Virus record (IMG/VR): IMGVR_UViG_3300010430_006938
Span: 1 to 25,691 of that record
Strand: one strand, 5' to 3'
DNA: 25,691 nt
Source of the DNA: a virus
How positions within the stretch are numbered: position 1 is the stretch's first letter; each line of letters opens with the position of its first letter. A program made the translations under genes and the position numbers. Below, in pieces: positions 1,686-23,184 of this stretch. The notes beneath the pieces are model-generated. The model ran no database searches and was not told the origin of the DNA. It saw nothing but the letters and a program-made list of their open reading frames with translations.

Positions 1686-2162
1686 ATGCGCTGGATTGCC
1701 TTATTGCCGATTATCATGCTGCCTGGGTGCATGTCATCAAAGCCAATCTGGTACAAACCAGACACTCCACCGGCGATGAGCTTTAATGCTGCAACTGATT
1801 GTGAGGTAGAGGCATTGAGGAAGGTGCCTCCAAGCAACCAGCTCCGCACGTCGCCGGTCTTCCACACCCCCATGACGGTTCAGTGCAATGAGTTCACCAA
1901 CTCTTGCTCTGCATATGGTGGGAACACCTATGGCGGCCAGACCTATTCTGTAGATGCCAATGCAGGCCTCAGGCAGAACGTCATCCAGCAATGCATGGCA
2001 AAACGTGGCTGGCAGCTGGTCAATCTCCCGCCCTGTGGCGTAAACGAGCACAACACCTATCTGGAAAACCCAGCAGCATACCGGAAACCGAAATCGGTTG
2101 ATGCGACCAGCTGCGCAATTCTCGATCAAGCCCGCAATGAGTGGGTGATTTTCACGCCCTAA
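1686..2162 (+). CDS. Small outer-membrane lipoprotein, probable lysogenic-conversion gene
   Basis: A 158-residue protein with a short signal peptide ending in a lipobox (MLPGC, lipidated Cys15), so it should be acylated and anchored in the cell envelope. The mature part has several further Cys and a Gly-rich GGNTYGGQTYS stretch followed by a D-N-x-x-x-LRQNVIQQC helix. I recall this pattern from uncharacterised alphaproteobacterial lipoproteins. It has its own strong RBS and lies on the opposite strand from the late operon in a locally low-GC region. That is typical of morons, which are expressed from the prophage and alter the host surface, for example by superinfection exclusion. That role is inference only. 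Its stop overlaps the convergent stop of the last late gene by four bases. Confidence 0.8.
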   Translation: MRWIALLPIIMLPGCMSSKPIWYKPDTPPAMSFNAATDCEVEALRKVPPSNQLRTSPVFHTPMTVQCNEFTNSCSAYGGNTYGGQTYSVDANAGLRQNVIQQCMAKRGWQLVNLPPCGVNEHNTYLENPAAYRKPKSVDATSCAILDQARNEWVIFTP

Positions 2163-2431
2163 TAATCATCGGCGCGGTCAAGTCCTGGGGTCTGGTAGGT
2201 CTCCACCTGGTAATCCCATACCAGTTCAAAGACCTGATCGCAGACCTGCTCGAATGAGCCGATGTATTCGGACTCCAATTCGGTTAACGCCAATTTCAGA
2301 GATTCGTCTTTTGCCTTTTCGTAGGCCACAAATTCAGGGGCAGATTTCAGCCCCTGCTTTTCTCCAACCGAATAGGCCAAGAACAGCGCGATAAAAACCG
2401 CAATACCTAATATGAGGTTGCTGAAATTCAC
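2159..2431 (-). CDS. Small membrane-anchored protein, last gene of the late operon
   Basis: A 90-residue protein with one N-terminal transmembrane helix (about residues 5-24, LILGIAVFIALFLAY) and a hydrophilic, acidic, probably helical C-terminal domain. It starts at a GTG that overlaps the stop of the giant gene (GTGA), so translation is probably coupled to the giant. No alternative start lies nearby. Base composition is lower in GC than the giant gene and resembles the neighbouring lipoprotein, so it may have been acquired with it. Function is unknown. An envelope or superinfection role is one guess. Its TAG stop is convergent with, and overlaps, the TAA of the lipoprotein gene. Confidence 0.65.
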   Translation of the reverse strand: MNFSNLILGIAVFIALFLAYSVGEKQGLKSAPEFVAYEKAKDESLKLALTELESEYIGSFEQVCDQVFELVWDYQVETYQTPGLDRADDY

Positions 2432-5400
2432 TCGGCCTGCGGTCCCATCTTCTCGATAAACTTGGCGTTGAACTCAAGATAGAGCGTGTTGCGATCATCT
2501 TTTAGAGGCTTCAGTCTTGCCTCGCGCTGTCGCCCCGTCAATGTCTCGTCGGCATAGACGGCCTCCAGACGGTCACCGATTTTCTTCCTGCGCTTCTCTG
2601 CGGCACGAAGAGCGAACCACAACCCATTGAGATCCTTCATCTCCTGCGTCATGGGATGTCCGGTTTCCTGAGAAAGCTTGGATTGCTTTCTCGCCTCCTG
2701 AACAGCTTCCCTGAATTCGAAATAGCGGTTCTGGTTCAGGAACTCCCCGGACTCGGTGTAGAGAACCCGGACAAGGGGAAGCTCATAGGCTGATGTCTGA
2801 TCAATCGTACCCTCGGCCGCGCGCTCAGCGACACCGTACATCCGGCCAGCAAAGCGCCCGGCGCCACCAGTCATGAACTTGAAGAAGTGGTCGATGTACT
2901 CGGGTGATACGTCGATGAGGCCGGATTCGAGGGGAGATCCACCGGTGGCAGTATTCAGCCCCCGCGCAACCGCCCGAGACGGCGCACTGGCGTTGAACTC
3001 CTTGTAAGCCTGGGGCCCATAGTCGCCATAGGGGTTTTCCGGCCGGATCGGGCGCCCGAGCCAGTCCCTGTTGTTGTCGAACTCGTTGGCGAAGTCCAAC
3101 ACCGTCGGCGCCAGCATCTCGAAGCCGCTTTCACCCGCGATCGGGGAGAACGCGCCTACGGTGGCCTTCAGCAGCTGACCGGCGGCCTCGTCAGGGGATT
3201 TGACACCGCGCACGATCTTCCCAAGCTGCTGACCAGCGAAGAAGAACACGTTGTAGCCATAAGGCAGCGGGATCGTGATATAGCCCTCGTCATTCAAAGG
3301 CGTCGCCACGATGATGTTCCGCTCGGATTTGTAGACCGGCAGCTGGTCGTATTCGAGCTCCCCATCATCATCGGTGCCGGACAGCATGGCCGCCAGCAGG
3401 TCATTGGCGAAGCCGAAGAGGACCATACCCCCGACGATCTTCTTGACCTGCCGCGACCGCATCGCCTTCAGGATCACATGGGAGCCTTGGATCGCAGCAT
3501 TTGCAAATGGATACCAGGCGTTCATGGTGGCACCGATCTCACCGCGGCGGTTGAAGTTCACGGTGAGGTTTTTGGCGAGACTGGCTGCGTCGGCCTTGCT
3601 CCATCCGTTCTTCCGGGCCTCTGCATATGTCGCCAGACGCACAGCATTGTCGACCGCCATGTTCACGTTCTCGATCATGCTAAGAACGGGGTTATCGCGG
3701 GTCGAAGGCAATGCCAGCCGGGAGACAGTACCCGTCAGCTTACCTCTGGACGCGCGCGCCACACGCTTCTTGAAATCGACGCTCTGGCCTTCTGGATTGT
3801 CCACCTTCCAGAAATGGATCCGGCCGCCGGCTTCCGAATACTCGTTGAACCATTTCGCATATTCGGTATCGGTCTTGCCGCCAAGGCCTCGGTGGGCACC
3901 GCGCAGGGATTTGACCCAATCGCGCATTGCCGCCTTGCGCAGCTTGCCCGGGATGTTGCCGCCAGCCGCGCCAAGGTTAACCTGGGCCGTCATCATGTCG
4001 CGGAAGGCGTTCACGATGATGAATGGCGGCGAAAGCATGGTGTTGATTGAGCTGAAGTAGCGCGAGAACAGGCTGGCGATTGATGTCACCTTGCCCATCT
4101 CGTTCGTTCCCAGCTGGCCAAGAGCCTCAGCCAAGCGCGGATCCTTGAAGGTGATCCGGTGTTCCTTGCCGTCGACCTTCAGCGCCATCTCGTTCTCGGC
4201 CAGCGGCCGGGCCGCCGCGCCGACCACGCGGGTCTCTACCTTGCCGGTGGCGTTGTTATAGAACCGCTGTGTCTCCGGGGTGGAGATCTCATACATGGCC
4301 GGGTTCGGGTGACGAACTGCGAAATTGTACATCACCTTGGCGACGCGGTTCTTTTCGGCGCGAACGGTCACCTCCATCGCCTGCGTCAGCAGAGTTGCCA
4401 GCGGGTCGAAGGCTTCGGTGCTGCGCCCAAGGGCACGCTGCCCCTCTTTGCCACGAACATTGAACTTCCGCCCCATGGCCGTGCGCTTGTCGTTGACCAC
4501 ACCGTCGAACATGTCGTCTTCGGCGAACTTCTGGAGCGGGACATAGTGCTGGTACATGGTTCGCCAGATATGGGCGTCCTGTGCGCTCAGAAGACCGGCA
4601 TCCTCGCGCGCGGTGATCATTTCCTTGCCCAGCTTGTCGGTGAGCGCGCCGATCTGGTCGAGACGCGCCTGATAGGGCCCTGACTGCTGCAGGATGGCAT
4701 CTGCCTCCGCGTTGGTCAGGCCGGATCCACCGTCAGGCATCTGGTCGTTGATGGAGGCGATATGCGCGTTCCGCTCTTTGGCGTGCCGGGCCATGAGCCA
4801 CAGGCTCACCGCGTCGGATCCTTCCCGGGTGGTGCCATTGTGATCGGTAATCTCGATCTTGGCTTCGGAGATCAGGTCAACAATCGGCTGGGTGAAGTTG
4901 GCGTCGATCTCATCGAGCAAATAGCCAACTCGGCCGGAATAGCGTTCCTCGGCGAAATAAGGCGATTCCTCCTTGCGGACGCCCTGCCCGGTCAGCTCTT
5001 CGGTGGCCTCCTCCATGCGGCGCAGAACAAGCATGCGGTCCTGCACCAGGCGCCGGAAGCGTTCGAAGCGGGTATCATCGGGGATCGCGGCCGAATGAGT
5101 GGAAACAGCTGTCGCCTGCACACCCTCCGGCTTCATCTTGCGCACAGCCGATGACGGGCGCTGGTACTTGGTCAGCTCCTCGCCGGTGACGCGGCCATCG
5201 CGAGATCCGACTTCCCCGCTCTCCACTGTCTCGAAGATGTCTTCTGGCGTGTTGATCCCCTGCCCAGTCAGCACCTCCTTCATCGCGCGGAAGAAGCGGC
5301 TGATTTTGGCGAAAACGGATTTCAGGCGTCCTTGGGCGGACTGCCCGTCAACATGGGCGGCAAAGGCTTCCGCAATTGCTTCCTCGATCTGCGCCTCTTT

Positions 5401-8400
5401 GGAAAGATCAGGATAGCGCGCCTCGATGTCATACTCGGCCATCCAGCGGCTTTCGGCCTCGGCGGCCAATGCGCTCCACTCGGCATCAGTGAACAGCCCG
5501 CGCGCGCGCAGAACGTGGATCGCCTCGTGGTTCACCGTGTTCATGCCATCGAGCGTGTTCCCGATCAGGATCTCGATCCCCTCGGGGCCGAATTCCACCG
5601 CCCCCTGCTCGCCCATGTCCTGGTCGATGGACAGATCCACGCCGCGGATCATCATCTTATCCAGCCGCGCTTTCAGCTCCGGCAGGAGGGCTTGCAGTTT
5701 AGCTGGGTCGCCGCGCCGACTTGGGCCTTGGCGTTGGTACATCCGCACGCCGGTGTCGGTCTCTTCGGTCTGGATGGTGTCGAACAAGTTGCGGAATGCC
5801 GCATTGATGTCGGCCCGCTCCTGCCCCTCTGGATATGGCTTCACATTGAAGAGGAGGTATTCCGGCAGGAGGTTGTGCTTTTCATAGGCGAGGAAGTCGT
5901 TGCGCGCGTCGATGTCCTTCAGCCGGTCATAGACATAGCTCTCGAAGGCCCGGGCAATCAGCTCGTGATTGGTCGCCCAATAGCCGGATGCGCGCCCGCG
6001 GTCCAAGATCCATGCCTCTGACACAAACTCGCTGGCGACGGTCTTGTCCTTGACCTTCTGCTCTTTGGCTTCGGCAAGGAACTGGTCGGCCCGTCGCTTG
6101 GCCTCGATCGCGAATTGCAGCTCCACCGCCGGGCCGGTGTCACGCCCCTGGTGCTTGCGATAGGCCTGCCGACCGCGCACGTCCTTGTAGATCTCGGCCA
6201 GCTGCAGCACAGGCTCATTGAACATCGGCGGGAAGGTCGAGCGGGATTTCGTCGGCGCTTCAACTTTTTCGCCCAACTTTCCGCTCTGAATACGCTTTAT
6301 CAGCGTGTCGACCTTCAATAGCTGCGCCTTTGTGGCCGGTGCCTTCTTCCTGCCGTACCTCTGCTCGGTCGCCAATTCATCCCGGAACGACTTCAGCTTC
6401 TGCTCCAGCTGCTTGGCGGCACGGTTTTCGATCACCTCGCGGGTGCTGACATCCTCTTTGAACTCGGCCTTGCGCTTGGCAATGGTCTGCATCACGGCCT
6501 TGAAGGCCGCACGGACCTCCTCACGGACCCCGGAGCGGCTGTACTGGAACCCGTGGGAGGCATAATCCTTGGCCTGATCCTTGGCGTCGAACACCTCGTC
6601 ACCGCGCTCATTGGTGATCTTCTCAGAGGAAGCCTTGCCGTCCTGGCGCCCGAAGTAGTGATCTGCTGCATGCATCCACTCATGGGCCAGAGCTCCGGCG
6701 CCTTGGATCTTGGTGAGATTGATGACCCCATAGTTGCGCTCATAATGCGCCCGGCCGCCGGTCAACCCATGCCCTCGGGATCCGAAAGCCAGAGCCAGAT
6801 CACCGTTCAGAGAAATAGCCTTGGGCGGCACGCCCAGAATCTCTGACAGATCAAGGAAGGAATCGAAGGCTTGGTTCAGGATATGCTGACGCTCCGCCCC
6901 GTTGTTCCATTTCCCGAACTCCACGCCGCGGAAGCCAAACACCTCAGAGAAATCCTCGGGCGTCACGTCGCGACCATCCTTGCGGCGGTCCTCTCCCTCC
7001 CGCAGCGCCTGTTCCAGAGCCGGGTGGATCCGGTCATCCAGCCGCATGTCGGTCTCGATGATCTCAACCGCGTTTTTCGCCATGTATTCCATGGCTTCCT
7101 CGCGTGTCTTGAACCCATCCTTGAAGGTGTGGCTTTTCTTGCCGGTCACGCGGTCGATCGAGAACTCTTCTCCCTTGGAGCGGACGCGGTGGTTGCGCGC
7201 GACCTCGTAGAGCGGGATGGCTGCCTCGGCCTCGGCCTCGCTGTCGAACACCTTAACGCGGTATCCGTCGCGGACCTGTCGCCCGGACTTCTTGTCCTGA
7301 AGGATGAACTTTCCGGTCATGCCGCCGCTGTTATTCAGGTCGACCTGCTCCAGAACAGCATATCGCTTGCGCCAGGCGGGCGCGCTCTCTGCCTTAGACT
7401 TCTTTCCACGCGGTCCGGTCTTCTCTGCGATGTCCTTGCGGGCACCGCCGATCTTCTCGCCGAAGTCATCGATGCGCTCTTTCTTGACCGGCTCTTGATC
7501 CGTGCGCTCCTGCACAGGATCCGCAGGCTTAGGCTTGTAGCCTTCCTCGATCTCCTCCAGCACGGTATTGGCGACATCCGGGCCGAACTCTTCCGACAGT
7601 GCCTTGCGCGCGGCGACGACGCGCTCCGTTGCAGCCATGTAATCATCAAGATGGGCGTCATCATCGGGCAGGTCTTCCCGCGCGGTCCATTCCTTGCGCA
7701 GGATTTCCGTCAGCCTTCTTTGGTGCTTGGAGGGTTTTGACGCCTTCTGGCCTGCAGTTTCGCCTTTGGCCACCTCCGGCGCGGTGCTCGGGGCGTCGAA
7801 CATATCGCCCTGGGTATCGAACAGCGGCCCGGCATCGTCCTGCGGAACAGCGGTGCGCGCCTTGCTCTGCTGCTGGCGGGCTTCCATCTCGCGGCGCTCA
7901 TCGGCCTTGCGGGCCTCCGCGCTGCGCTCGGCGCTTTGCTCGGCGCCGGGGATGACAGCCTGTTCGCCTGCTTCTGTGCGCTCAGTTTGAGGGATTCCCG
8001 TGGCTGCAGCGGGGGCCTCATTGGGCTCAGAAGCGGCGTCGCTTACTGCTGTGGCTGCGGGCTCTTCCGCTTGGCCGACATCAGCCCGTCGATCATCTTG
8101 AGCGACTCCCGTGCCTCGGTTTTCTGCTCCGGGCTGGCCTTGGGATCGTCCAAGATCGCCCGGTTCTTCCGATGCAGCATCGCTGCCTCGCGCTGTTTCC
8201 CCGTCTGCGGGTTGCTCAGCCAGTCGCGTTTCGGGAGATTGTTTGCCATAGCCATCTGCTTTTCTGTGAAGGTTCCACCATACCGCATCTTCGACGTTTC
8301 CGCCACGGTCGTTCAGGATGCCAATGATCTCTTGGCGACGGCCAGCGGCGACGCTGCCGGACATGCCGATCTCGGACATCACGGCATCCACACTGCGCGC

Positions 8401-10653
8401 CACGTATTCCATCCGCTCGGAAGGGGTCGAGATGTCCTCCTCCGGGTGCGTGATGACCACGGCGGCATCCTCAACACCTCCAAGGTCGATTTCCTCTGGA
8501 TCCGGGTCGGCGGCCTCGAAACGAGCCTGCGCCTCTTTGGCATCGGCGGCCATCTGCAGATCGGCTTGCTCACCTACCTGCACCGGGGCACCGCGCATCT
8601 CGCTTTCCAGCGCATCGATGACGCCCTGCCGGTTCAGATAGCCGTTGCCATCCTCGCCTACCTCATAGCGGTAATCGCCCCACTCATCGGCCGGCAGGTT
8701 ATCCCAATCGGAGACGCCATTGCTATTGAACAGGCCGGGGTGAGTGCGCGCGTTGATCCCGCGGGCTTTCAATTCCTCAGCCAAAGGCGATCCCGGTTTC
8801 ACCGTGAGCCCGCGCGTCTTGAGCTCGTTTGCGACCGGACGCTTCTGAAGCGTGGTATTGCCCCGCGCCTTGCGCTCTACGACCTCGACCGGCCCTGCCG
8901 CCTGGGGAAGATCCAACGGCGCGACATCGGGACCAGTTTGTTCTTGAGGCTGCTCTGCTTCTTGACGGGGCGCGGATGGCTCATCGGCAATCGTCTCTTC
9001 CTTGCTGGCTTCTACCTTCGGTGTCGGCGCGGGGGTGGTGTCTACCTCTACCGGCGCGTCGGGGGTGATCTTTTCGATCTGTCCCGTGGTCGGGTTCAGG
9101 CGGACGAATTCGCCGGTCTCGCGGCCTTTCTCGTCCATGACCGGCAGAACCTCTGCATCTCCACCTTCAGGCTGTGCTGGTGCCTGGGTCATTGCCTCAG
9201 GCTCAGGGATAGCGCCTGCGGCAACAGGGGCCTGCTCCTGAACAGGTTGTGCCGGTGCCTGCGGCGTCTCTCCCCCGGCAGGGGCAGCGTTGCTCGGCAA
9301 ATTGGAGGGGGGATTTGTGGGGGCATTCTGCGCGACGGGCTGCACCGGGGCCTTCCCACTCAGCAGATCCTCGATCGCGGCCTTGCCGTCATCGATCACA
9401 GCATTTGGCAGCGGGCTCGCCCGGTCGGCTTCCGTCAGCCGAGGGCTATCCAAGCGTTGATCATCGCGTGGCGTCGAAGCGATAGCGCCAAGACCGCCAC
9501 CAAGGATGGCGCCGATCAGCGCGGCCTCACCGGCCCCGTCGAAAGCATTTTGGTCAGGGTTCCATATCCCGCGCGCGATCAGGTTATTGGAGATCTCGGT
9601 CATCGCTTCCTGCGCGCCTTCTTCGCCAGCAGAGCGGAACGCGTCAGACAGACGGCGACCAAGGGCATTGGCGACCCTGCCCCGCGCCTTGGCCGGAAGG
9701 AGGTTCAGAGCGCGCCCGATGGGGACAGCCTCAGTCGTACCAACGATAGCCCCGAGATATGCGGCCGTGCGCGCTTGCTCCTCGCTGGCTCCTTCCTGAA
9801 TAGCCCGCCGATACATGCCAGATGAATTGACTGCGGAACCCGTTGCGACGATGCCAGGCAGTCCAGTCAGGATTGTCGCGCCAACGAAACCAGCCATGCT
9901 GCCGCCGCCTTCGGCCAGCTTTGAAATGAACCGGTCATCAAACTGCGGATCTGGCGTGCCGAACAGCTCCTCGCTGGCCGCGCGGAGCTTGTCGCCTCGC
10001 TGGAACAGGGGCCGATCCTGAGCCGCAGGCTTCAAGGGCCCTTCAGCGGTAGCGATAAGAGGCTCATAGGCGGCTACCTTCCGGCGCTCGGCCGCGATCA
10101 CATCTTGTATCCGCTTCCGCCCTTCCTCGGACATATCCGGGTTTTCTGAGAGCCGCTGTTCAGCAAGGGCGATTTGCTCCCGTGCCCGGTCGACCTCCTC
10201 TTGAGCGAAAAGGGCCGATGCATTCGGGTTCCCTGCTCCAGCAATCGCGGCGGCTTCGGGCAGAGACGCGGCCACCTCGGTTGCGCCTCGGGCAAAACGG
10301 CTGCCCAGATCTCCAATCGGCTGGCTTTCATCGTCACCCGCCTGTTCCCGGCGCCGCGCGGTCTCCAGCTGCTCATCCACGGAGCCCACGCCAGACAAAT
10401 CGTTGGCCGGGACCGCAGGGGCATCCGTCAGCCCATCCATATAGGCTGAACGGCCAAAACCGCGCTCTGCCCGCGCGTCATCGGTCTGATCGGCTTGGCG
10501 CGGTGGGCGCGCAACTGGCCGCTTGGAAACCGCAGGCGCGGCTTCCTCTACTGGCCCCGCCGTATCCGAGGGGATTAAATCATCAAAAAGGCCGCCTCCA
10601 GAGGAAGCGGCCTTGTCATTCTGATCCGGGATCAGGTCGTCAAAAATGCCCAT
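2428..10653 (-). CDS. Giant polyvalent protein (LPD domains, two HExxH zincin motifs), probable ejected internal virion protein
   Basis: A 2741-residue protein taking a third of the window. The order visible is as follows. A duplicated FDDLIP motif lies at residues 4-9 and 23-28. Gly/Ala-rich, possibly membrane-active helices lie near 250-320 and 370-390. A long disordered Pro/Gln/Glu-rich region runs to about 1150, interrupted by a small helical domain near 740-790. An LPD5-like segment follows (about 1160-1230). An LPD1-like domain has HEWMH at 1324-1328 and a later NHELIARAFESY with E1564 or E1571 as possible third ligand. A second zincin has HEAIH at 1709-1713 and EEAIAEAF at 1757-1764. 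An ARHAKERN block lies near 1955, an LPD38-like C-terminal region at about 2200-2600, and a PLxR-type tail (PLVRVLY) near 2622. LPD numbers are from memory. Such polyvalent proteins are known from phages and conjugative elements and are thought to enter the cell with the DNA. The position at the end of the structural operon supports packaging in the virion. The start overlaps the preceding stop (TGATG). Confidence 0.85.
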   Translation of the reverse strand: MGIFDDLIPDQNDKAASSGGGLFDDLIPSDTAGPVEEAAPAVSKRPVARPPRQADQTDDARAERGFGRSAYMDGLTDAPAVPANDLSGVGSVDEQLETARRREQAGDDESQPIGDLGSRFARGATEVAASLPEAAAIAGAGNPNASALFAQEEVDRAREQIALAEQRLSENPDMSEEGRKRIQDVIAAERRKVAAYEPLIATAEGPLKPAAQDRPLFQRGDKLRAASEELFGTPDPQFDDRFISKLAEGGGSMAGFVGATILTGLPGIVATGSAVNSSGMYRRAIQEGASEEQARTAAYLGAIVGTTEAVPIGRALNLLPAKARGRVANALGRRLSDAFRSAGEEGAQEAMTEISNNLIARGIWNPDQNAFDGAGEAALIGAILGGGLGAIASTPRDDQRLDSPRLTEADRASPLPNAVIDDGKAAIEDLLSGKAPVQPVAQNAPTNPPSNLPSNAAPAGGETPQAPAQPVQEQAPVAAGAIPEPEAMTQAPAQPEGGDAEVLPVMDEKGRETGEFVRLNPTTGQIEKITPDAPVEVDTTPAPTPKVEASKEETIADEPSAPRQEAEQPQEQTGPDVAPLDLPQAAGPVEVVERKARGNTTLQKRPVANELKTRGLTVKPGSPLAEELKARGINARTHPGLFNSNGVSDWDNLPADEWGDYRYEVGEDGNGYLNRQGVIDALESEMRGAPVQVGEQADLQMAADAKEAQARFEAADPDPEEIDLGGVEDAAVVITHPEEDISTPSERMEYVARSVDAVMSEIGMSGSVAAGRRQEIIGILNDRGGNVEDAVWWNLHRKADGYGKQSPETRLAEQPADGETARGSDAASEEPGDLGRSQGQPGAENRGTGVAQDDRRADVGQAEEPAATAVSDAASEPNEAPAAATGIPQTERTEAGEQAVIPGAEQSAERSAEARKADERREMEARQQQSKARTAVPQDDAGPLFDTQGDMFDAPSTAPEVAKGETAGQKASKPSKHQRRLTEILRKEWTAREDLPDDDAHLDDYMAATERVVAARKALSEEFGPDVANTVLEEIEEGYKPKPADPVQERTDQEPVKKERIDDFGEKIGGARKDIAEKTGPRGKKSKAESAPAWRKRYAVLEQVDLNNSGGMTGKFILQDKKSGRQVRDGYRVKVFDSEAEAEAAIPLYEVARNHRVRSKGEEFSIDRVTGKKSHTFKDGFKTREEAMEYMAKNAVEIIETDMRLDDRIHPALEQALREGEDRRKDGRDVTPEDFSEVFGFRGVEFGKWNNGAERQHILNQAFDSFLDLSEILGVPPKAISLNGDLALAFGSRGHGLTGGRAHYERNYGVINLTKIQGAGALAHEWMHAADHYFGRQDGKASSEKITNERGDEVFDAKDQAKDYASHGFQYSRSGVREEVRAAFKAVMQTIAKRKAEFKEDVSTREVIENRAAKQLEQKLKSFRDELATEQRYGRKKAPATKAQLLKVDTLIKRIQSGKLGEKVEAPTKSRSTFPPMFNEPVLQLAEIYKDVRGRQAYRKHQGRDTGPAVELQFAIEAKRRADQFLAEAKEQKVKDKTVASEFVSEAWILDRGRASGYWATNHELIARAFESYVYDRLKDIDARNDFLAYEKHNLLPEYLLFNVKPYPEGQERADINAAFRNLFDTIQTEETDTGVRMYQRQGPSRRGDPAKLQALLPELKARLDKMMIRGVDLSIDQDMGEQGAVEFGPEGIEILIGNTLDGMNTVNHEAIHVLRARGLFTDAEWSALAAEAESRWMAEYDIEARYPDLSKEAQIEEAIAEAFAAHVDGQSAQGRLKSVFAKISRFFRAMKEVLTGQGINTPEDIFETVESGEVGSRDGRVTGEELTKYQRPSSAVRKMKPEGVQATAVSTHSAAIPDDTRFERFRRLVQDRMLVLRRMEEATEELTGQGVRKEESPYFAEERYSGRVGYLLDEIDANFTQPIVDLISEAKIEITDHNGTTREGSDAVSLWLMARHAKERNAHIASINDQMPDGGSGLTNAEADAILQQSGPYQARLDQIGALTDKLGKEMITAREDAGLLSAQDAHIWRTMYQHYVPLQKFAEDDMFDGVVNDKRTAMGRKFNVRGKEGQRALGRSTEAFDPLATLLTQAMEVTVRAEKNRVAKVMYNFAVRHPNPAMYEISTPETQRFYNNATGKVETRVVGAAARPLAENEMALKVDGKEHRITFKDPRLAEALGQLGTNEMGKVTSIASLFSRYFSSINTMLSPPFIIVNAFRDMMTAQVNLGAAGGNIPGKLRKAAMRDWVKSLRGAHRGLGGKTDTEYAKWFNEYSEAGGRIHFWKVDNPEGQSVDFKKRVARASRGKLTGTVSRLALPSTRDNPVLSMIENVNMAVDNAVRLATYAEARKNGWSKADAASLAKNLTVNFNRRGEIGATMNAWYPFANAAIQGSHVILKAMRSRQVKKIVGGMVLFGFANDLLAAMLSGTDDDGELEYDQLPVYKSERNIIVATPLNDEGYITIPLPYGYNVFFFAGQQLGKIVRGVKSPDEAAGQLLKATVGAFSPIAGESGFEMLAPTVLDFANEFDNNRDWLGRPIRPENPYGDYGPQAYKEFNASAPSRAVARGLNTATGGSPLESGLIDVSPEYIDHFFKFMTGGAGRFAGRMYGVAERAAEGTIDQTSAYELPLVRVLYTESGEFLNQNRYFEFREAVQEARKQSKLSQETGHPMTQEMKDLNGLWFALRAAEKRRKKIGDRLEAVYADETLTGRQREARLKPLKDDRNTLYLEFNAKFIEKMGPQAE
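8043..8306 (-). CDS. Candidate overprinted gene inside the giant gene (87 codons, alternative frame)
   Basis: A same-strand open frame nested in the giant coding sequence, out of phase with it, from a GTG at 8306 (or ATG at 8288) to TAA at 8043. By hand count about 70 of its 87 codons end in G or C, as in the real genes here, while only about 38 of 87 giant-frame codons over the same bases do. The predicted protein is ordinary-looking and helical (RDWLSNPQTGKQREAAMLHR, then KNRAILDD, then a Lys/Glu-rich helix). The giant frame here encodes a low-complexity A/G/E/Q/D linker. The start has only weak Shine-Dalgarno-like purines. Alternatives are a pair of compensating frameshifts in the giant gene, or a former separate gene now read through. 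I do not recognise the product. Confidence 0.45.
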   Translation of the reverse strand: MAETSKMRYGGTFTEKQMAMANNLPKRDWLSNPQTGKQREAAMLHRKNRAILDDPKASPEQKTEARESLKMIDGLMSAKRKSPQPQQ

Positions 10654-11318
10654 CAGAGGTCTTTCGGTTCAATGCCCATCTCACGCAGGCGCTGCTTGAC
10701 CTTCTCGGGGTCGGCACCGCGTGCAATTGCGTCTTTCGCATCGGCGATAGCCTGCGACGTATCCGGCTTCTGGCTCTGCCCCGCATCAGGTGCAGGCGGC
10801 CCGCCCAAAGCAGACCGAAAGCCATAATTCGTCTGGGTCGAGGTTTCTTCGTATTTGCCATCATCATCCCAGAGCCTGGCCGGGCTCAGCGGGTGGCGCT
10901 CCTTCAATTCGGTGGTGGTAACTTCGGTGCTGCCCCACTCGCCCCGCGCGCGCTCAGCCGCCTTGGCAAGAGATCCCTCCTCTTTGATCAGCTGCTCAAC
11001 ACGGGTTTCAAACGCCCCCAGACCGGGCGCTTCGCCCTCAAATGCACCGTTTTCTGCATAGTCTTTGTAGAGCCGGGCCAGATTGTCCGATTCCGTGTTG
11101 GAGAGAGCGCGGCCAGAGCGTCCTCCGCTGCCGCCACTCCCGGATCCGCCCTTCCGGTAGCGGGCCTTGGAAGCCGCGCGCGATTCCGCGACATCTTTGT
11201 CCAGCTCGGCTTTCTTCTCCATTTTCAGGAGGTCGTCGGCGAGCTTTCTGCGGTCTTCGGCAACCTTCATCAGGCCACCGCCAAGCCCCTGGAGCGCCCC
11301 TGCGAATGCAAAGCTCAT
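10653..11318 (-). CDS. Ejection-type internal virion protein candidate (221 aa)
   Basis: A hydrophilic 221-residue protein immediately upstream of the giant gene. It opens with a short Gly-rich hydrophobic segment (FAFAGALQGLGGGLM), then a strongly charged helix (about residues 18-55), a Gly/Ser linker (GGSGSGGSGG) and helical C-terminal parts, ending in a small PEKVKQRLREMGIEP motif. The start ATG follows GGAGG by nine bases and overlaps the previous stop (ATGA). Its own stop overlaps the giant start (TGATG). No known family is recognised. Position between other small helical proteins and the giant suggests a partner in the ejection complex. This is inferred from gene order only. Confidence 0.7.
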   Translation of the reverse strand: MSFAFAGALQGLGGGLMKVAEDRRKLADDLLKMEKKAELDKDVAESRAASKARYRKGGSGSGGSGGRSGRALSNTESDNLARLYKDYAENGAFEGEAPGLGAFETRVEQLIKEEGSLAKAAERARGEWGSTEVTTTELKERHPLSPARLWDDDGKYEETSTQTNYGFRSALGGPPAPDAGQSQKPDTSQAIADAKDAIARGADPEKVKQRLREMGIEPKDL

Positions 11319-11932
11319 GTCTGCTGGCCTCCTGCCTGTCGCTGCTGCATCATGGCGTCCATGGTCCTTTGCTGGGCGCCACCGACGCGCTGTTGAACAT
11401 TCCCGATCAGATCGTCACCGGCCATCTGGCGGATCTGCTCGGATTGCTCCTGAACCATTTGGGGGTCGATAAGGCCCGCCTGATCCAAGGCCTCGCGCAC
11501 CTTGTCCGCCGCCAGATAGTAGGCGGTCTCGATTTCATCCGGCTCGATCCCTTGCTCGCCCGCAGCCTCGGCCACCATCGCGATCTCCTGAATCACCTCC
11601 CAGCCACCATGCACCAAGATCTCCGGCGGGATCTCATGCCCGTTCTTCTTGGCCTCCATGTAGATCCGCTGAGCGATGCTCGCCCCAATCGACGCCATCG
11701 CATCGGTCTGGTTCGGATGCTTCTTGAACATCTGAACCACTTTCGGCAGGAACTTCTCGTCCCACAGAAGCTTCATGCACATCCCGACGAAGCGGTTGTA
11801 CTGCTCTTGCAGCTCAGGCGCCGCCTGTTTGCCCTGTGCCGCAGAAAATCCTTTGGGCTGCTCTTGAGCCCCTTCCTGCTGCGCAGGCGCGGCGCCCTGC
11901 CCCTCTTTGAGAAGATCGGCAAATCCGTTCAT
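11315..11932 (-). CDS. Helical phage structural or ejection protein (205 aa)
   Basis: A 205-residue, largely helical, Gln/Glu/Ala-rich protein. It has a disordered N-terminus (residues 1-40), a conserved-looking middle (MCMKLLWDEKFLPKVVQMF, GHEIPPEILVHGGWEVIQEI) and a Gln/Met-rich C-terminus. It has no signal peptide and no clear transmembrane helix. An AAGGGGA box lies just before the ATG at 11932, and the stop overlaps the next start (ATGA). I recognise it only as a type of protein found beside giant polyvalent genes in podovirus-like prophages. A virion-internal role is likely but unproven. Confidence 0.7.
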   Translation of the reverse strand: MNGFADLLKEGQGAAPAQQEGAQEQPKGFSAAQGKQAAPELQEQYNRFVGMCMKLLWDEKFLPKVVQMFKKHPNQTDAMASIGASIAQRIYMEAKKNGHEIPPEILVHGGWEVIQEIAMVAEAAGEQGIEPDEIETAYYLAADKVREALDQAGLIDPQMVQEQSEQIRQMAGDDLIGNVQQRVGGAQQRTMDAMMQQRQAGGQQT

Positions 11933-11944: not shown

Positions 11945-12427
11945 TTATGCCTGGACGATCTGACCGGCGTTGCGGTCATACCGGAAACGCTTGGCGCCGG
12001 TTTCCATCCGGTTCCGATACTGTTCACCGAGACGCTTGCGCTTCTCGGTTTGACCAACACGCAGGCCTTCGTTGGATTGCGCATCGGCCCGCTCAAAATT
12101 GTTGGTGGATGCAGCCTGCTCGGCCTCAGGGCTTTGCCCCTGATCCCAGAACCGAACCGCGTCACCAGCACCCTCGTAGCTGTCGCGGACGCGCCGGTCC
12201 TCGGCCTCCCGCATCGCTTCTTCCTGTTTGTACTCGTTTTTCTTCATCATGGCGGTGCCGATGCCGGAGACCACGCCCCCCATGATGGTGGCGAAGGCGG
12301 ATGTGCCCGCCGCTGCTGCGGCACCTGCACCTGCGGCGGCGGCGGCTCCAGCCCCGGCCGCAGCAGCGCCAGCCCCTGCGGCGGGTGCAAAGATGGTGCC
12401 AAGTGCTGGAAGCATTGGGAGGCTCAT
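11945..12427 (-). CDS. Gly/Ala-repeat protein, probable internal virion protein (160 aa)
   Basis: I place the start at the ATG at 12427, which follows AAAGGACTCTGAT, rather than at an in-frame start 45 bases upstream inside the preceding gene. The 160-residue protein begins MSLPMLPALGTIFAP, then has an extreme Ala/Gly tract at residues 16-41 built from three imperfect GAGAAAA(A) units. A second hydrophobic stretch (ATIMGGVVSGIGTAMM) and a charged helical C-terminus follow. The hydrophobic N-terminus plus charged helix is what one expects of a membrane-inserting ejection protein, as for T7 gp14-like proteins, though no homology is claimed. It overlaps nothing and sits one base after the stop of the GNAT-like gene. 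Confidence 0.75.
   Translation of the reverse strand: MSLPMLPALGTIFAPAAGAGAAAAGAGAAAAAGAGAAAAAGTSAFATIMGGVVSGIGTAMMKKNEYKQEEAMREAEDRRVRDSYEGAGDAVRFWDQGQSPEAEQAASTNNFERADAQSNEGLRVGQTEKRKRLGEQYRNRMETGAKRFRYDRNAGQIVQA
12305..12382 (-). repeat. Alanine/glycine-coding low-complexity repeat
   Basis: This tract of GCN and GGN codons encodes residues 16-41 of the preceding CDS entry. It is made of three imperfect repeats of about 7-8 codons (Gly-Ala-Gly-Ala then four or five Ala). Codons are mixed (gcc, gct, gcg, gca), so it is selected at protein level rather than a pure microsatellite, but unit number could vary by recombination between copies. Confidence 0.7.
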
Positions 12428-12428
12428 A

Positions 12429-12917
12429 TCAGAGTCCTTTCTCGTAAAGCCCACCGACCAAGCCGAAGCCATGCCGTCTGGTCAGGAGGGCGCCTATTGC
12501 GTCCGGGTTTGTGATTGCGTCTGTGATCGCGTAGCGGTGCAGGACAGGATGATCGGCGCTGTCCGCCCAATCGATGAAAGCATCCAGCACCCCCAATGAA
12601 GCCCGGGCGCCGGATCCCGGCTCGGCGAACCATATCAGGTCAGATGCCACCGAAACATCAAGGCAGGCATAGAGCGGCTGAACAAAGCCGACAAAGAGCG
12701 CGGACAACCCGCCCCCTGACTTTTCCGCGACGATGACGCGACCATTGCATTGCGGCGCCTCGGTCTGTCCGCTGATCAGATCCATAGCGACCCGGCGTAG
12801 CGCATTGCGATCGATATGCACGCGCCCCGCGAACTTTGAGGACGCCAGCGCCAGATCCATGAGGCGACGGATCTCCGGGATGTCGGAGAAGCGCGCCGCC
12901 CGGATTTCACAACTCAC
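12429..12917 (-). CDS. GNAT-fold acetyltransferase-like phage protein
   Basis: A 162-residue protein with the layout of GNAT N-acetyltransferases. The N-terminal beta-alpha (EIRAARFSDIPEIRRLMD) resembles the usual I-R-x-A-x-x-x-D-I-P start of this fold. Central strands (RVIVAEKSGG, ALFVGFVQP) follow, then a loop GSGARASLG where the acetyl-CoA pyrophosphate loop should be, and a helix (VLDAFIDWAD). The R/Q-x-x-G-x-G/A signature is only partly kept, so activity is uncertain. The start is a GTG at 12917, three bases after the previous stop. The substrate cannot be told. Being set among virion genes, it could modify a structural protein or a host target after infection. Confidence 0.7.
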   Translation of the reverse strand: MSCEIRAARFSDIPEIRRLMDLALASSKFAGRVHIDRNALRRVAMDLISGQTEAPQCNGRVIVAEKSGGGLSALFVGFVQPLYACLDVSVASDLIWFAEPGSGARASLGVLDAFIDWADSADHPVLHRYAITDAITNPDAIGALLTRRHGFGLVGGLYEKGL

Positions 12918-12920
12918 CGA

Positions 12921-14108
12921 TTACCGTCCAGGGTATGTGGGGCGAGTTGTGTTGGTGTCAGAACTCGCGCTTGAGGTGTCGCCGCCATCCGCTTTATCGC
13001 CTTCTTCAGGCTCAGGGGCGGTAATATCGAAGTTACCACCAGCCCAATCGATCTTGGTGTCGAAGAGATCGGACACCATGTCGACCTGCAGGTTCAGAAG
13101 CTCCCCGGCGTTTTGCAGCAATGCTTCGCGCTCTCCGGCCGGAAGGTTGGGGTTCCCGAGGATAGAGTTCAGCGCGTTCTGATACTGGCTGTTCATGGAG
13201 GTGACCATTTCAGACATGCTGTTCTTGGTCTGCTGATCCACATCGATCTGAGCGAGACGTTCGCGCATGCCAGACTCCATGCGCATCAACTGGCGCCGCG
13301 TCTTCGCATCCATCTTGGCCAACTGTTTGTCCGACGCCAGCTGGATCTTTTGAAGTTGGCGCTCCTGCTGAAAGGCCCGGTCGGTTTGTCCGCGCTCGAA
13401 CTTCTGATCCCGCTGTTGAATTTCGAGGTTCTGGCGGTACTCCTCCCTGGACAGCCCGAACTGCTGTTGGAATTCCTGCTCGGACAAGCTTTGGGCCTGC
13501 GCGAACTCCTGTTCTGAGAGCTCGCTCTGAAACGCCTGCTGATCCTCCTGCATTTCGCTCTGGAAGCTCTGGTCCCGTTTCTGGAGCTCCAAACCCTGCC
13601 GGTACTCCTCACGCGACATCTTGAACTGCTGCTCGAACTGCTGATCCGAAAGCGATGACGCCTGCTGGAACTCCTGCTCAGACAGGTCGGCCCGCTGCGC
13701 CGCTTCCTGGCTCGAAAGGGCGCTGGCGAACCCGTACTGCTGCTCATTCTCGCGCAGCCGGTGGCCTGCCTCTCGGTCGGACATTTGGCCGGCGTGGCGC
13801 TGTTGCGCCTCCTGGCTGGCCATCGGCACCACTCGATCCAACACTGCATTTGCCGCTTCGCCAGCCGCCGCCGATGAATTGAGCATGCCGCGGCGGTTCG
13901 CGTTTTGCGCTCCCTGCGTCCTGGCTCGGGCCATCAACGGGTTGTCCTTACCCATCATTTCGCCTGCGATTTCAGACACATTGGTCGTCGGATTTTCCCC
14001 ATTCAACGCGGCACCGAAGCCCCCGGCCATCGTCTGACGGGGAATGGACTGACCGCCCTTTTGGCGCTGCAACCGTTTCTGCAACGTCGAGATTTCCTGT
14101 ACGGCCAT
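12921..14108 (-). CDS. Gln-rich hendecad coiled-coil protein, probable virion rod or channel component
   Basis: A 395-residue protein whose start is fixed by AGGAGG five bases before the ATG at 14108 (a GTG one codon earlier is too close to the RBS). Residues about 120-300 fall into 11-residue steps, each beginning with L, M or I and carrying F or Y near position 6 (LSEQEFQQASS, LSDQQFEQQFK, MSREEYRQGLE and so on). That is the signature of a right-handed hendecad coiled coil. Five steps make a 55-residue unit present twice in tandem (142-196 and 197-251). The N-terminus carries Gly/Asn-rich motifs and the C-terminus is acidic and disordered (DTSSASSDTNTTRP). It heads the block leading to the giant protein, which suggests a rod or tunnel element of the ejection machinery. 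I know of no named family. Confidence 0.75.
   Translation of the reverse strand: MAVQEISTLQKRLQRQKGGQSIPRQTMAGGFGAALNGENPTTNVSEIAGEMMGKDNPLMARARTQGAQNANRRGMLNSSAAAGEAANAVLDRVVPMASQEAQQRHAGQMSDREAGHRLRENEQQYGFASALSSQEAAQRADLSEQEFQQASSLSDQQFEQQFKMSREEYRQGLELQKRDQSFQSEMQEDQQAFQSELSEQEFAQAQSLSEQEFQQQFGLSREEYRQNLEIQQRDQKFERGQTDRAFQQERQLQKIQLASDKQLAKMDAKTRRQLMRMESGMRERLAQIDVDQQTKNSMSEMVTSMNSQYQNALNSILGNPNLPAGEREALLQNAGELLNLQVDMVSDLFDTKIDWAGGNFDITAPEPEEGDKADGGDTSSASSDTNTTRPTYPGR
13356..13685 (-). repeat. Two tandem 165-base coding repeats
   Basis: Two adjacent 165-base units (13685-13521 and 13520-13356) encode 55-residue repeats that align without gaps, for example LSEQEFQQASSLSDQQFEQQ against LSEQEFAQAQSLSEQEFQQQ. 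The DNA copies have diverged at many third positions, so the duplication is old and kept at protein level. Each unit consists of five 11-residue steps. Confidence 0.75.
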
Positions 14109-14151
14109 CACAGCCTCCTTGATGTCGGGTTACAGGCCGCTCAGGCCAGTA

Positions 14152-16618: not shown

Positions 16619-19092
16619 TCTTCCACCTCATCGCTTACATCGCGCATCTTGATCCAGCGGGCGCCCACGGGCTGACCCTTGAGGACGCGAAGCTTGCCCA
16701 TCAGGCCCACCGTGTCCCATTCCGGCCTGTCGGCGCGCGGCGTATATTCCTGTGAAGGGTCATATTCCGGGTTCAGCTTGCGGCGCTGCTGCGTGACGCG
16801 CTCGGCATCAGCCGGGACCGCTACACCATCCGGCACCTCGTCAGCTGCATAGCTATGCTCGATTTCCCGGGTGGTCTGGCGCTGCACCTCGACCATGCGC
16901 GGCTCTTGGTGGATCACCTGCTGGCTCTCATAAATCGGCTGAGCAGGCTCCACCTCGCTGCCGTCCTCATCCAGCACCGGATCAGTCATGCCGATCTGCA
17001 CCTGCCGCATCACCGGATCACCGTTTTCATCCACCAGCGGGAACTCATCAAAGAGCGGCACCTGTACAGTTTCGGTCACAACGGTTTTGACCGCCACGCC
17101 ATCCACCACCTCGATCACCTCGCGGGTGCGCTCCTGCGCTTGGCTCGCCTGTTCATGAACCGTCTCGGTTTCGGTGACGACCTCGGACCAGCTCAGTGCC
17201 TCGTAATCTTCCCGGATGTAGGCCCCGAAGGCGTCCCGCAGATACTTGCCCTTCCAGCGATCAATATCGCCGTCACCAACCACGGACGGATTGGCAGAGA
17301 TGACACCGATAATGTCTTCCGGGTCATCCAGCCATGTCGCCGGACGTAGCTTGAACCCAGGCAGGCGCGCTTTCCCGCTCTCGTCGCAGAACATATAGAG
17401 GTAGGAATGGACCTTGCCGGTGGCGATGCGGGCCAACACAGCGTCCACTGCTGCCTGATCACCGCCTACCCGCGCCTCCACCTTTGCTCGAAGTTCTGTG
17501 CTTGAAAGAACCTCCTCAGCCTCAACAGTGTCGAGGACGACAGAGATACCGGCAGCAGTTTTACGCTGACGTTTCCACTCTTTGAGCCAATCCAGATGAG
17601 CCAGCGCCCATTCGAAGTATTCCGCATAGTCCGCCCCGCCGCCCGTCCAGGAGCCATCGCAGGTTCCGTTACCATCTGCGCGAAGTCGGAACTCGGAGTC
17701 TGCAAAGTTACTGCTGTACGCCTGCAGGAAATCGGCTGTTGAATTAGCCGCGCGATGCATATTGAGGGATAGCATATTATTGCCGTAGCTGGCGTTCGTT
17801 ACATCCACTCTTACCCCCGGCAAGGTGCCGCTGTCCTCCAGAGCATGTACCTTGGCCTCTACCGTAGTTACACCAAGACCTAGGTTCCCAGTTGGCGAGA
17901 TACGCATAGCCTCGGCTGGCGCTGCATTTCCCGACACATTAAACGACATCCCGATGTACCCAGAAGCGGTGCCCCGCACACAACTGATAGACGCATATCT
18001 GTCCGTTCGATCTGAGTGCATTGCCAGTAGTGGCACAGCATTATTGTCAGTAGAGACACTGCTGATAATCGATACGCCATCAATCGCAGTAGCCCAGCTA
18101 GACGAGCTGTTCGGGGCAATAGCAATAGAACCGTTACGGACATCGAGCCTTTCGATGGGTGAGCCTGTGCCGATACCTACATCACCGTTCCCATCAACGC
18201 GCATCTTTTCCGATCCGCCCGGGCCTAGTGACAAATAGTGCACACCACCGGACCAGTCCCAAGACATACCGACGATGTTTCCGGTCCCGGCGCTGTCTGG
18301 AACGCGGATGTCAAAACCATCGGTGTCATAAGACCGAACGCCCATTTCAGCGACAATATTACCACTACGTTTCACAAGGTAACGAGAGCCGTCTGTTGTG
18401 CTGTCGACACTCACTGTGCTGCCGAATTCCCCATATGAATTCGCGGTCAGCGTCGTAACCGCCGCCGGTGCAGGATCACTTTGGCCAATGGTCGCTCCGT
18501 CAATAGATCCGCCGTCAATGTTTACCGAGTCCGCCGCCTGCGTGGCGATACTGCCGAGGCCGATATCGCTGCGGAGCGTGGATTTGTTGGTGGCTTCATT
18601 AAACCGCGGCGCGCCGGTGAACGCAGGGTTGCCAGAGAATACCAGATCGGCGCCAAGGTTTGCGGCGATCCCGGCCATGTGGGAGCGGTAGAACCCCATC
18701 AGCACCATCGCGGTGCCGTTGAAAATGAGTTCCACGATGTCGCCGGAGGTCAGATCACCGGCCTCAACATCTGTCCCGTCCAGCCGCTTGATCGCGCGCG
18801 CACCAAGGCTGTCTACGTTTAGGGTCGATGCGCCGGTGTTTGTTGCGGGGATCTGGAGGCGAAAGCTCTGGCCCGCAGCATAGGCTGTAAGGGTCGCAGG
18901 CATTGCGGCTGCATAGGTATTGGCGCTGCCGGTGGCCACGGCGTAGTGAACCGCATTCTGCTCCAGCGCGTTTTTATCCGGAAGCTTGTCGAAGCCAGCC
19001 GCGATGGCATCGAATTTAGCCCGCATTTCAGCTGAGCGCGCCTTGGAGTTCCGGCTGAGCGGCGAAGTGTTGTTGAAAAAATCGTTGCTCAT
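16603..19092 (-). CDS. Tail fibre/spike with C-terminal Peptidase_G2-type chaperone domain
   Basis: An 829-residue receptor-binding fibre. The N-terminus (residues 1-40, helical) probably attaches to the tail. Residues 50-150 form a fibre-entry domain with NTGASTLNVDSLGARAI, a motif common in phage fibres. Residues about 200-470 are a beta-rich shaft with G-x-V-G-I-G-T and G-N-L-G-L-G-V turns. From about residue 485 (GADYAEYFEW) to the end it matches the Peptidase_G2 intramolecular chaperone (GVISANPSVVGD, W-x-GKYLRDAFG, then PEWDTVGLMGKL and RWIKMRDVS). This family is known to trimerise the fibre and then cut itself off. A segment of about 60 residues sits between the first and second conserved blocks and looks like an insertion. 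The start overlaps the previous stop (ATGA), with GGAGGG upstream. The shaft DNA is lower in GC. Confidence 0.85.
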   Translation of the reverse strand: MSNDFFNNTSPLSRNSKARSAEMRAKFDAIAAGFDKLPDKNALEQNAVHYAVATGSANTYAAAMPATLTAYAAGQSFRLQIPATNTGASTLNVDSLGARAIKRLDGTDVEAGDLTSGDIVELIFNGTAMVLMGFYRSHMAGIAANLGADLVFSGNPAFTGAPRFNEATNKSTLRSDIGLGSIATQAADSVNIDGGSIDGATIGQSDPAPAAVTTLTANSYGEFGSTVSVDSTTDGSRYLVKRSGNIVAEMGVRSYDTDGFDIRVPDSAGTGNIVGMSWDWSGGVHYLSLGPGGSEKMRVDGNGDVGIGTGSPIERLDVRNGSIAIAPNSSSSWATAIDGVSIISSVSTDNNAVPLLAMHSDRTDRYASISCVRGTASGYIGMSFNVSGNAAPAEAMRISPTGNLGLGVTTVEAKVHALEDSGTLPGVRVDVTNASYGNNMLSLNMHRAANSTADFLQAYSSNFADSEFRLRADGNGTCDGSWTGGGADYAEYFEWALAHLDWLKEWKRQRKTAAGISVVLDTVEAEEVLSSTELRAKVEARVGGDQAAVDAVLARIATGKVHSYLYMFCDESGKARLPGFKLRPATWLDDPEDIIGVISANPSVVGDGDIDRWKGKYLRDAFGAYIREDYEALSWSEVVTETETVHEQASQAQERTREVIEVVDGVAVKTVVTETVQVPLFDEFPLVDENGDPVMRQVQIGMTDPVLDEDGSEVEPAQPIYESQQVIHQEPRMVEVQRQTTREIEHSYAADEVPDGVAVPADAERVTQQRRKLNPEYDPSQEYTPRADRPEWDTVGLMGKLRVLKGQPVGARWIKMRDVSDEVEEWLVR

Positions 19093-21170: not shown

Positions 21171-21877
21171 CAGGCGAGCGTCCCGCGCATTTTGATCTCC
21201 GGGAGCTGATGCAGGCGCAGGTCTGACATGACCCGACCATAGTTTCCGTTCCATACCGGCAGCTGCTCGAACGCTTCATCAAAGGTTCCGAGCTTTACCA
21301 GTGCCAGCCACTTGATTGCGGTGTGGAATTCGGCAGGCATCTCTGGGGTGTGAGCATCCAAGGAAAGCGTCTGAGGCGCTTTGTGGTAGCCCCCTCGGAT
21401 CGTGTAGGCATCATCTGGGATCGGCCAAAAGCGCAGCTTGTTGGAGTTGTCCACCGTGAAATAGACCGGCTTGTCCTGCCGTGAGGCCTCGCTACCAACC
21501 ATCAGGTGGCGCCGAAAATACGACCAATCGCGATAGGTGAGGAAACCCTCGTCGGCCTGCCCGAGAGATGTCTTGTAGATGGTGAACAGGTTCTCCCCGT
21601 CCTCACCATAAAGAACCCAGCGAGAGAACCGTTCGGCGATCCCCATTGCGGCAGAATCGTACTGCTGAACAGTCGCCACGGTCTCGCCGGAGAAGTCCTC
21701 CTGCATCCAGCGCCAGGCGTTCTCCTCCCGCTGGATGTCCTCATAGGCCTCGGTCACCCATCCCATGATGCGGAGCAGGCGCCCGGTTTGACCTGTGGTC
21801 GTCTCAGGCTGGCCGATGTTGGAAACTGTGCCGCTGTCTTTGGCGACTTCCTGGCACAGTTTGAGAAAGGTGCTCAT
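21170..21877 (-). CDS. Head-tail adaptor protein (SU10-adaptor type)
   Basis: A 235-residue protein resembling the adaptor that bridges portal and tail nozzle in podoviruses such as SU10. It begins STFLKLCQEVAKDSG with the G-Q-T-G-R-L-L-R-I-x-x-W-V-x-E-A-Y helix typical of these adaptors. It then has W-R-W-M-Q-E-D-F, a middle with K-L-R-F-W-P-I-P-D, and a C-terminus where HTAIKWLALVKLGTF precedes a Y-G-R-x-M-x-x-L-R-L helix. Length fits the family. It follows the small connector genes and is coupled to the large tail gene by a TGATG overlap. Confidence 0.7.
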   Translation of the reverse strand: MSTFLKLCQEVAKDSGTVSNIGQPETTTGQTGRLLRIMGWVTEAYEDIQREENAWRWMQEDFSGETVATVQQYDSAAMGIAERFSRWVLYGEDGENLFTIYKTSLGQADEGFLTYRDWSYFRRHLMVGSEASRQDKPVYFTVDNSNKLRFWPIPDDAYTIRGGYHKAPQTLSLDAHTPEMPAEFHTAIKWLALVKLGTFDEAFEQLPVWNGNYGRVMSDLRLHQLPEIKMRGTLA

Positions 21878-21883
21878 CCCCGG

Positions 21884-22405
21884 TTATGCCGCGTAGGAGA
21901 ACGGATATTCTTTGACCACGCGGGGTTCGCGCAGGCCAGTTTCCATTTCCTGCATCGAGGTATCAGCCGTGATAGGCGGGTAAACGAACTTCTCGGCGTT
22001 TTCGAGAATTTCGACATACTCGACCGGGATGGCATACGGCTCGTTGCGCGGGATATAGAGCTGGACGCCGTTGCACGACACCGGCACCGGTTCGGATCCC
22101 CCAGGCTTCTCCTGCTCCGGGATCACGATTGCCACGCACATGCGCTCTTTGCCGCCGAATTCGTGCATGAACTCGCGGGGCCGCGGCTTGCCGTTGGAAT
22201 CGCTGACAGCGGGGATTTCGCTGGACTTCTTCAGCGTTGGGATGGTGTCTTTCGTCCACCCTGCGGTTTCGATCAAAACCTTGATGTCGTCCTTCTTGGC
22301 ACCTTCAGGCACCTCCAAACCCATCATCAGTTCCGCGAATTGGGTGAGCTGCGTCAGGTTGGCCTTGCTGACGGCGACGTGTTCAACGGGCAATCCCTGT
22401 TCCAT
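21884..22405 (-). CDS. Small head/connector protein (173 aa), function unassigned
   Basis: A 173-residue protein whose ATG shares a base with the preceding stop (TGATG). Residues 28-60 (LEVPEGAKKDDIKVLIETAG) look like a small HeH/LEM-like helix-turn-helix, a fold seen in some phage and transcription-related proteins. The centre is beta-rich (RMCVAIVIPEQE, PVSCNGVQLYIPRNEPYAIP) and the C-terminus is VKEYPFSYAA. Its place between the capsid genes and the adaptor suggests a head-completion or connector part. I do not recognise a named family. Confidence 0.65.
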   Translation of the reverse strand: MEQGLPVEHVAVSKANLTQLTQFAELMMGLEVPEGAKKDDIKVLIETAGWTKDTIPTLKKSSEIPAVSDSNGKPRPREFMHEFGGKERMCVAIVIPEQEKPGGSEPVPVSCNGVQLYIPRNEPYAIPVEYVEILENAEKFVYPPITADTSMQEMETGLREPRVVKEYPFSYAA

Positions 22406-22776: not shown

Positions 22777-22783
22777 CTCATGG

Positions 22784-22798
22784 TCCTTTCGCAAAGGA
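22784..22798 (-). promoter_or_regulatory. RBS-sequestering hairpin before the 123-residue gene
   Basis: On the minus strand TCCTTT, GCG, AAAGGA forms a perfect 6-base-pair hairpin in which AAAGGA is the Shine-Dalgarno of the gene starting at 22776 and TCCTTT is the end of the terminator's pyrimidine tail. The hairpin would lower initiation unless opened. It could be chance given the short stem. Confidence 0.4.
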
Positions 22799-22818
22799 AA
22801 AGGGCGCCGAAGCGCCCC
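22795..22818 (-). terminator. Strong rho-independent terminator after the decoration gene
   Basis: Minus-strand sequence GGGCGC, TTCG, GCGCCC (22817-22802) followed by TTTTCC. It is a 6-base-pair GC stem capped by the extra-stable TTCG tetraloop and followed by a T-run. It begins 24 bases after the decoration stop. It should reduce transcription of everything downstream relative to the capsid genes. Confidence 0.8.
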
Positions 22819-22841
22819 TCTCGTTGATCAATGGTGGAGGT

Positions 22842-23159: not shown

Positions 23160-23184
23160 AGCGGGCCTCCTTTCATGTTGTCAG

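Follow-up and report, generated by a model that had tools for sequence, protein, structure and literature searches.

Does a giant phage protein with two HExxH motifs carry two zincin metallopeptidases, and do the two serve the same end? The question was raised by a 2741-residue ORF in a virus record of 25,691 bases, hereafter the window (the whole stretch of DNA analysed), which a sequence-only reading had taken for a polyvalent protein that, as a hypothesis, acts after ejection as a double protease on host defence or envelope proteins. Exactly two HExxH motifs are present in the chain, HEWMH (1324-1328) and HEAIH (1709-1713), at the places given in that reading. Shuffled chains of the same composition contain on average 0.03 HExxH motifs, with at least two in 1 of 2000 chains, and these shuffles, together with the conservation described below, rule out a pair of chance motifs.

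The ORF (Table 1) belongs to a run of virion genes on the minus strand, extending from the capsid and adaptor genes to the giant itself, as in polyvalent proteins. Its coupling to a small upstream gene, noticed earlier, is real, since the TGA of the 221-aa gene and the ATG of the giant share one base and read TGATG. The position at the end of a virion operon holds as far as the same-strand run is concerned, but the giant is not quite the last gene, being followed by a 90-codon ORF (2159-2431). Elsewhere in the window, an 829-aa protein (16603-19092) has, close to its C-terminus, a Peptidase_G2 (IMC autoproteolytic) domain and is likely a self-cleaving tail fibre. A plus-strand 158-aa ORF (1686-2162) with a lipoprotein-type signal lies between the virion operon and a tyrosine integrase gene, which sits at the edge of the record (1-1200) on the strand opposite to the giant; because of this integrase, the phage is probably temperate. 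Neither portal nor terminase was recognised within the 25,691 bases, and the window is probably a fragment.

Several unlike domains are joined in the giant chain, as in other polyvalent proteins: the two zincins, LPD1 (PF18796, 70.4 bits for a cut-off of 27), LPD38 (PF18857, 131.9 bits, E 4e-38, cut-off 27) and a marginal LPD5 (PF18799), which reaches 26.9 bits where 27 are required, covers only the C-terminal half of the model and so falls short of a formal assignment. A complete LPD5 is found at the matching place of an E. coli phage relative (L013). Pfam thus confirms the LPD-type domains announced from the sequence, LPD5 with the reservation just given. The PLxR-type tail proposed along with them was not recovered: the PLxRFG model (NCBIfam NF032893), which does match a relative (L003), finds nothing in the giant even at E 1, the PLxRFG string is absent, and the tail is of the LPD38 type. 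We also considered an N4-type virion RNA polymerase (vRNAP) and rejected it, since the polymerase domain is absent (no Pfam match to a T7-type RNA polymerase domain in the giant); the PHROG match is confined to residues 272-528. A PADLOC search gave no match to known defence systems.

Both ligand regions named beforehand were correct, NHELIARAFE supplying E1564 and EEAIAEAF supplying E1758. In zincin 1 the predicted zinc ligands are H1324, H1328 and E1564. Its N-terminal part matches the CLCA_X family (NF041907) with 136 bits against a whole-protein cut-off of 260, and by sequence similarity we regard it as a CLCA_X homologue, not a formal member. In an alignment of seven sequences (the giant, an IMG/VR contig, phages of E. 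coli, Pseudoalteromonas, Shewanella and Dolichospermum, and an Acinetobacter element), the HExxH, an Asp three residues beyond it and the ExxAR of LPD1 are all invariant, and the stretch from HExxH to LPD1 is variable. Across 157 non-redundant homologues drawn from genome and virus collections, H1324, E1325, H1328, E1564 and R1568 are conserved at 100% and D1331 at 99%; the values for H1324 and E1325 are partly due to construction because the search pattern contained HE, with H1328, E1564 and R1568 lying outside the pattern. The distance from HExxH to Glu is 240 in the giant versus 89-100 in solo forms, and some members of the family lack the insert of about 150 aa within the domain.

In the E. 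coli phage relative, a single CLCA_X match covers the HExxH part through LPD1. From this match and the conservation of E1564 and R1568, LPD1, a Pfam domain of unknown function, is therefore read as the C-terminal half of zincin 1, bearing the third ligand. Such a reading corrects the interpretation of plasmid proteins annotated by LPD1, for example in Acinetobacter and Vibrio. In solo CLCA_X-LPD1 proteins (262, 527 and 552 aa) every ligand is retained, so zincin 1 is predicted to be able to function alone. L003, whose zincin 1 is the nearest to that of the giant among the relatives, combines LPD37, LPD39 and a PLxRFG tail and has HExxH only once.

For zincin 2, the predicted ligands are H1709, H1713 and E1758. 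H1709, E1710 and H1713 are conserved at 95-100% in the strong homologues and are invariant in the zincin 2 alignment. The HMM search that had been proposed with the earlier reading matched LPD1, the marginal LPD5 and CLCA_X, but zincin 2 had no match in Pfam. By iterated profile it was found in Ruegeria phage 45A6 (38% identity), and weaker relatives carry HExxxH instead of HExxH. The same profile matches N4 vRNAP at a HELVH site with a fitting downstream helix; the match is weak, 12 bits against 1.2 for the reversed N4 sequence. Compared with each other, the two zincins reach an hhalign probability of 25%, which gives no support to a recent duplication.

An AlphaFold2 model of residues 1150-1840 (78 sequences, mean pLDDT 82) has in both domains a helix, three strands, the HExxH helix and, following it, a helix with the conserved Glu; pLDDT is mostly above 90 in zincin 1 and about 70-85 in zincin 2. 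Every PDB match listed by Foldseek at a probability greater than 0.5 is a zincin (Spartan, MATCAP, PprI), with E-values that are not significant (all above 0.4, best 0.49). Against BFVD, polyvalent proteins come first, followed by phage IrrE and lethal-factor-type proteins. No relative of solved structure was found by single-sequence search, and profile searches gave lethal factor, thermolysin and IrrE below threshold only. The model of the C-terminal region is mostly helical (pLDDT 82), with no meaningful fold match in the PDB. Judging by the near-invariant ligands and the predicted topology, both HExxH domains are genuine zincin domains, as the sequence-only reading had held. In BFVD, parts of the giant occur as separate short proteins of Escherichia phage phi191 (A0A096XES0 and A0A096XES8), so that gene may be broken or mis-annotated.

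Table 1. Coordinates of the giant ORF, its domains and the neighbouring genes in the window
Feature	Position	Strand	Remark
Giant polyvalent protein ORF, 2741 aa	2428..10653	minus	ATG start, 2741 codons, internal stops 0
N-terminal module (Gly/Ala-rich), residues 241-393	9475..9933	minus	part of the conserved chassis
LPD5, residues 1160-1237, directly before zincin 1	6943..7176	minus	Pfam E 7e-6
Zincin 1, N-terminal part (CLCA_X-like), residues 1217-1338	6640..7005	minus	NCBIfam CLCA_X E 1e-39
HEWMH, residues 1324-1328	6670..6684	minus	zinc-ligand motif of zincin 1
Segment of about 150 aa inserted in zincin 1, about residues 1393-1541	6031..6477	minus	alignment
LPD1, residues 1550-1630, bearing E1564	5764..6006	minus	Pfam E 1e-19
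Zincin 2, residues 1645-1820	5194..5721	minus	homologous to a domain of 45A6; about 20 domains match strongly
HEAIH, residues 1709-1713	5515..5529	minus	zinc-ligand motif of zincin 2
E1758, third ligand of zincin 2 (EEAIAEAF)	5380..5382	minus	invariant in the zincin 2 alignment
C-terminal chassis region, residues 1858-2741, LPD38 at 2434-2615	2431..5082	minus	
90-codon ORF, N-terminal hydrophobic stretch, 4-base overlap with the giant's stop	2159..2431	minus	
221-aa gene upstream of the giant, 1-base overlap with its ATG	10653..11318	minus	
205-aa gene, 4-base overlap with the next gene	11315..11932	minus	
175-aa Gly/Ala-rich protein, weak tape-measure matches	11945..12472	minus	
GNAT-like acetyltransferase within the virion operon	12429..12917	minus	PHROG 1249 E 0.001
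396-aa Gln/Glu-rich protein, candidate internal virion protein	12921..14111	minus	guess from position and composition
Upstream virion genes: capsid (23224-24225), SU10-type adaptor (21170-21877), others	19089..25313	minus	

Of the CLCA_X proteins, 133 extend for 600 aa or more past zincin 1, and in 113 of them another HExx(x)H follows within 600 aa, against 8 of 127 upstream stretches of 600 aa (Fisher p 8e-42), so the zincin tandem is the rule among relatives. The pair also exists outside phages, since a 1779-aa LPD1 protein of the MPF_I-typed Marinobacter plasmid pMAQU01 (L176, 1455-6794) has a CLCA_X HEYGH and, in addition, a HEAFH that matches zincin 2 weakly; an EAL-domain gene comes after it. 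The closeness of the second zincin to the first favours the explanation that both are autoproteases which cut the polyvalent chain into working pieces and attack no host protein, a general proposal of Iyer et al. (2017; PMC5512222), in which P1 DdrB is described as processed before packaging. However, the solo forms of zincin 1 (262-552 aa, ligands intact) have little or nothing to release, zincin 1 is missing from most relatives selected by their tail (see below) while zincin 2 is kept, and N4 vRNAP and plasmid ArdC/TraC1 are delivered uncut according to the same source. We regard self-cleavage by both domains as possible yet doubtful.

Relatives were also collected by their tail, which avoids selecting them by zincin. 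The scan with the full tail alignment revealed no conserved stretch, and a smaller tail alignment proved usable. The resulting non-redundant set has 71 proteins in which 1000 aa or more precede the tail, about 67 from the scan with the smaller alignment and the others from earlier tail searches. A zincin 2 match is present in 61 of the 71 and a CLCA_X zincin in 19 (Fisher p 7e-13, a value that overstates the certainty, given the small size of the set and the excess of some lineages in it). In 54 of the proteins an HExx(x)H lies no more than 500 aa from the tail. Three close relatives, L179, 45A6 and L181 (56, 44 and 40% identity to the giant, respectively, measured across the tail or across zincin 2 together with the tail), have the N-terminal region, zincin 2 and the tail in common with it. 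Between the N-terminal region and zincin 2, where the giant has LPD5 and zincin 1, all three carry helicase domains, accompanied by a methyltransferase in two of them and by GNAT in 45A6. An extra ART domain is located between zincin 2 and the tail of L179.

This distribution suggests that the zincins are unequal, zincin 2 going with a conserved chassis and zincin 1 being an optional cargo, and the double protease of the earlier reading, with both zincins directed as one unit against host defence or envelope proteins, is not supported by the comparison. Both active sites are conserved, and the payload position of close relatives holds antirestriction-type helicase/methylase modules, as such a role would have it. 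On the other side, the zincins differ in distribution and are not closely related (hhalign, as above), and zincin 2 behaves as a part of the delivery chassis. We consider a joint attack on the host improbable. Of the two, only zincin 1 is a plausible effector; for zincin 2, self-processing or a part in packaging and ejection is the better fit.

As to delivery, the N-terminal module recurs near the N-terminus of other giants, its iterated profile matching Ruegeria phage 45A6, L158, L173 and residues 312-434 of N4 vRNAP (direct BLAST E 9e-5, as a single-subject search); it could be an ejection or membrane module. Residues 1858-2725 are homologous to residues 3616-4505 of gp69 of Burkholderia phage JC1 (E 1.5e-61), a protein ranking second by score, with 51 unique peptides, in mass spectrometry of CsCl-purified JC1 virions (PMC9144972). 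In N4 vRNAP, the zincin-containing region is required for encapsidation (PMC5512222). By homology to these two proteins, the giant is likely located in the virion and delivered with the DNA. In the accessible part of virion proteomics of BPP-1 and E. coli phages, the giant is not reported.

We suggest, with moderate confidence, that the giant is a virion-packaged protein co-delivered with the DNA of a temperate phage, probably a podovirus, in which chassis and payload are combined and labour is divided between the zincins. The chassis, made up of the N-terminal module, zincin 2 and the large LPD38 tail, would put the giant into the virion and then carry it into the cell. Zincin 2 would act within delivery, the simplest possibility being that it cleaves the chain, either while the virion is packaged or once the cell has been entered, and so frees the payload. 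The payload would be LPD5 and the CLCA_X-type zincin 1, with its third ligand in LPD1 beyond the insert of about 150 aa, and once in the host zincin 1 would probably be a peptidase on a host protein. The analysis itself establishes the domains, the conservation of the ligands, the predicted zincin topology and the exchange of modules, from which we infer packaging, ejection, proteolytic activity and this division of labour; JC1 gp69, which lacks zincin 1, is a counterpoint to this explanation. More tentatively, the LPD5-CLCA_X/LPD1 zincin may be a swappable anti-defence payload, a site-specific protease that replaces an antirestriction-type helicase-methylase module on the same chassis and would inactivate a defence protein of the host, zincin 2 being the release protease. 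Processing of the chain need not happen, because N4 vRNAP is packaged uncut (PMC5512222). The latter protein, which bears a zincin and needs this region for its encapsidation, would also agree with mainly structural or regulatory zincins, that is, a zinc-bound fold without relevant proteolysis which, for example, keeps the chain ejectable. But the general bases E1325 and E1710 are as strictly conserved as the ligands and would be needless in a purely structural site, and we give this explanation very little credence.

A zincin pair in a polyvalent protein is a known arrangement according to the 2017 survey (PMC5512222), and our refinements, LPD1 as half of a zincin and unequal roles of the two zincins, are modest. 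Whether injected phage zincins cut their own chain or host proteins was left undecided in that survey, and our literature search found no later answer. Division into chassis and payload, which was not found in the parts of the survey consulted, makes the predictions differ between two domains of a single chain. The giant forms natural pairs with 45A6 or L179, which have the chassis in common and differ in the payload.

Compared with known systems, the giant resembles N4 vRNAP in being a giant protein encoded at the end of a virion operon, with an N-terminal module and a zincin 2 that are distantly similar; unlike it, N4 vRNAP has a polymerase domain, and the LPD38 tail profile has no convincing match in N4. 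JC1 gp69, a Bcep22-like DarB-type antirestriction protein, has a homologous tail and, about 150 residues before it, a zincin (HEAFH), and its virion operon likewise includes an acetyltransferase (gp63) at a comparable place and small virion genes upstream. It differs in its size (4515 aa), in its helicase-type payload (table in PMC9144972) and in having no CLCA_X zincin. The polyvalent proteins of the 2017 survey are like the giant, combining LPDs and zincin-like metallopeptidases in multi-domain giants among virion genes. Zincins are their commonest domain (PMC5512222), with more than one in about 8% of the chains that have any; HExxxH variants and inserts before the Glu helix are already described, as is a clade of phage zincins in which a further His is conserved and HExxH is followed three residues later by an Asp, the corresponding residues of the giant being H1303 and D1331. 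LPD1 to LPD40 are listed there as domains of elusive function, whereas in the giant LPD1 is predicted to supply the third ligand of the CLCA_X zincin. CLCA_X itself was defined in 2013 by authors who noted its occurrence in phages and plasmids and took the conserved Asp after HExxH as a possible additional ligand (PMC3650047). Zincin 1 is homologous to it across HExxH and LPD1, but the domain of the giant is split by the insert of 150 aa, and our alignment favours E1564 over the Asp as the third ligand.
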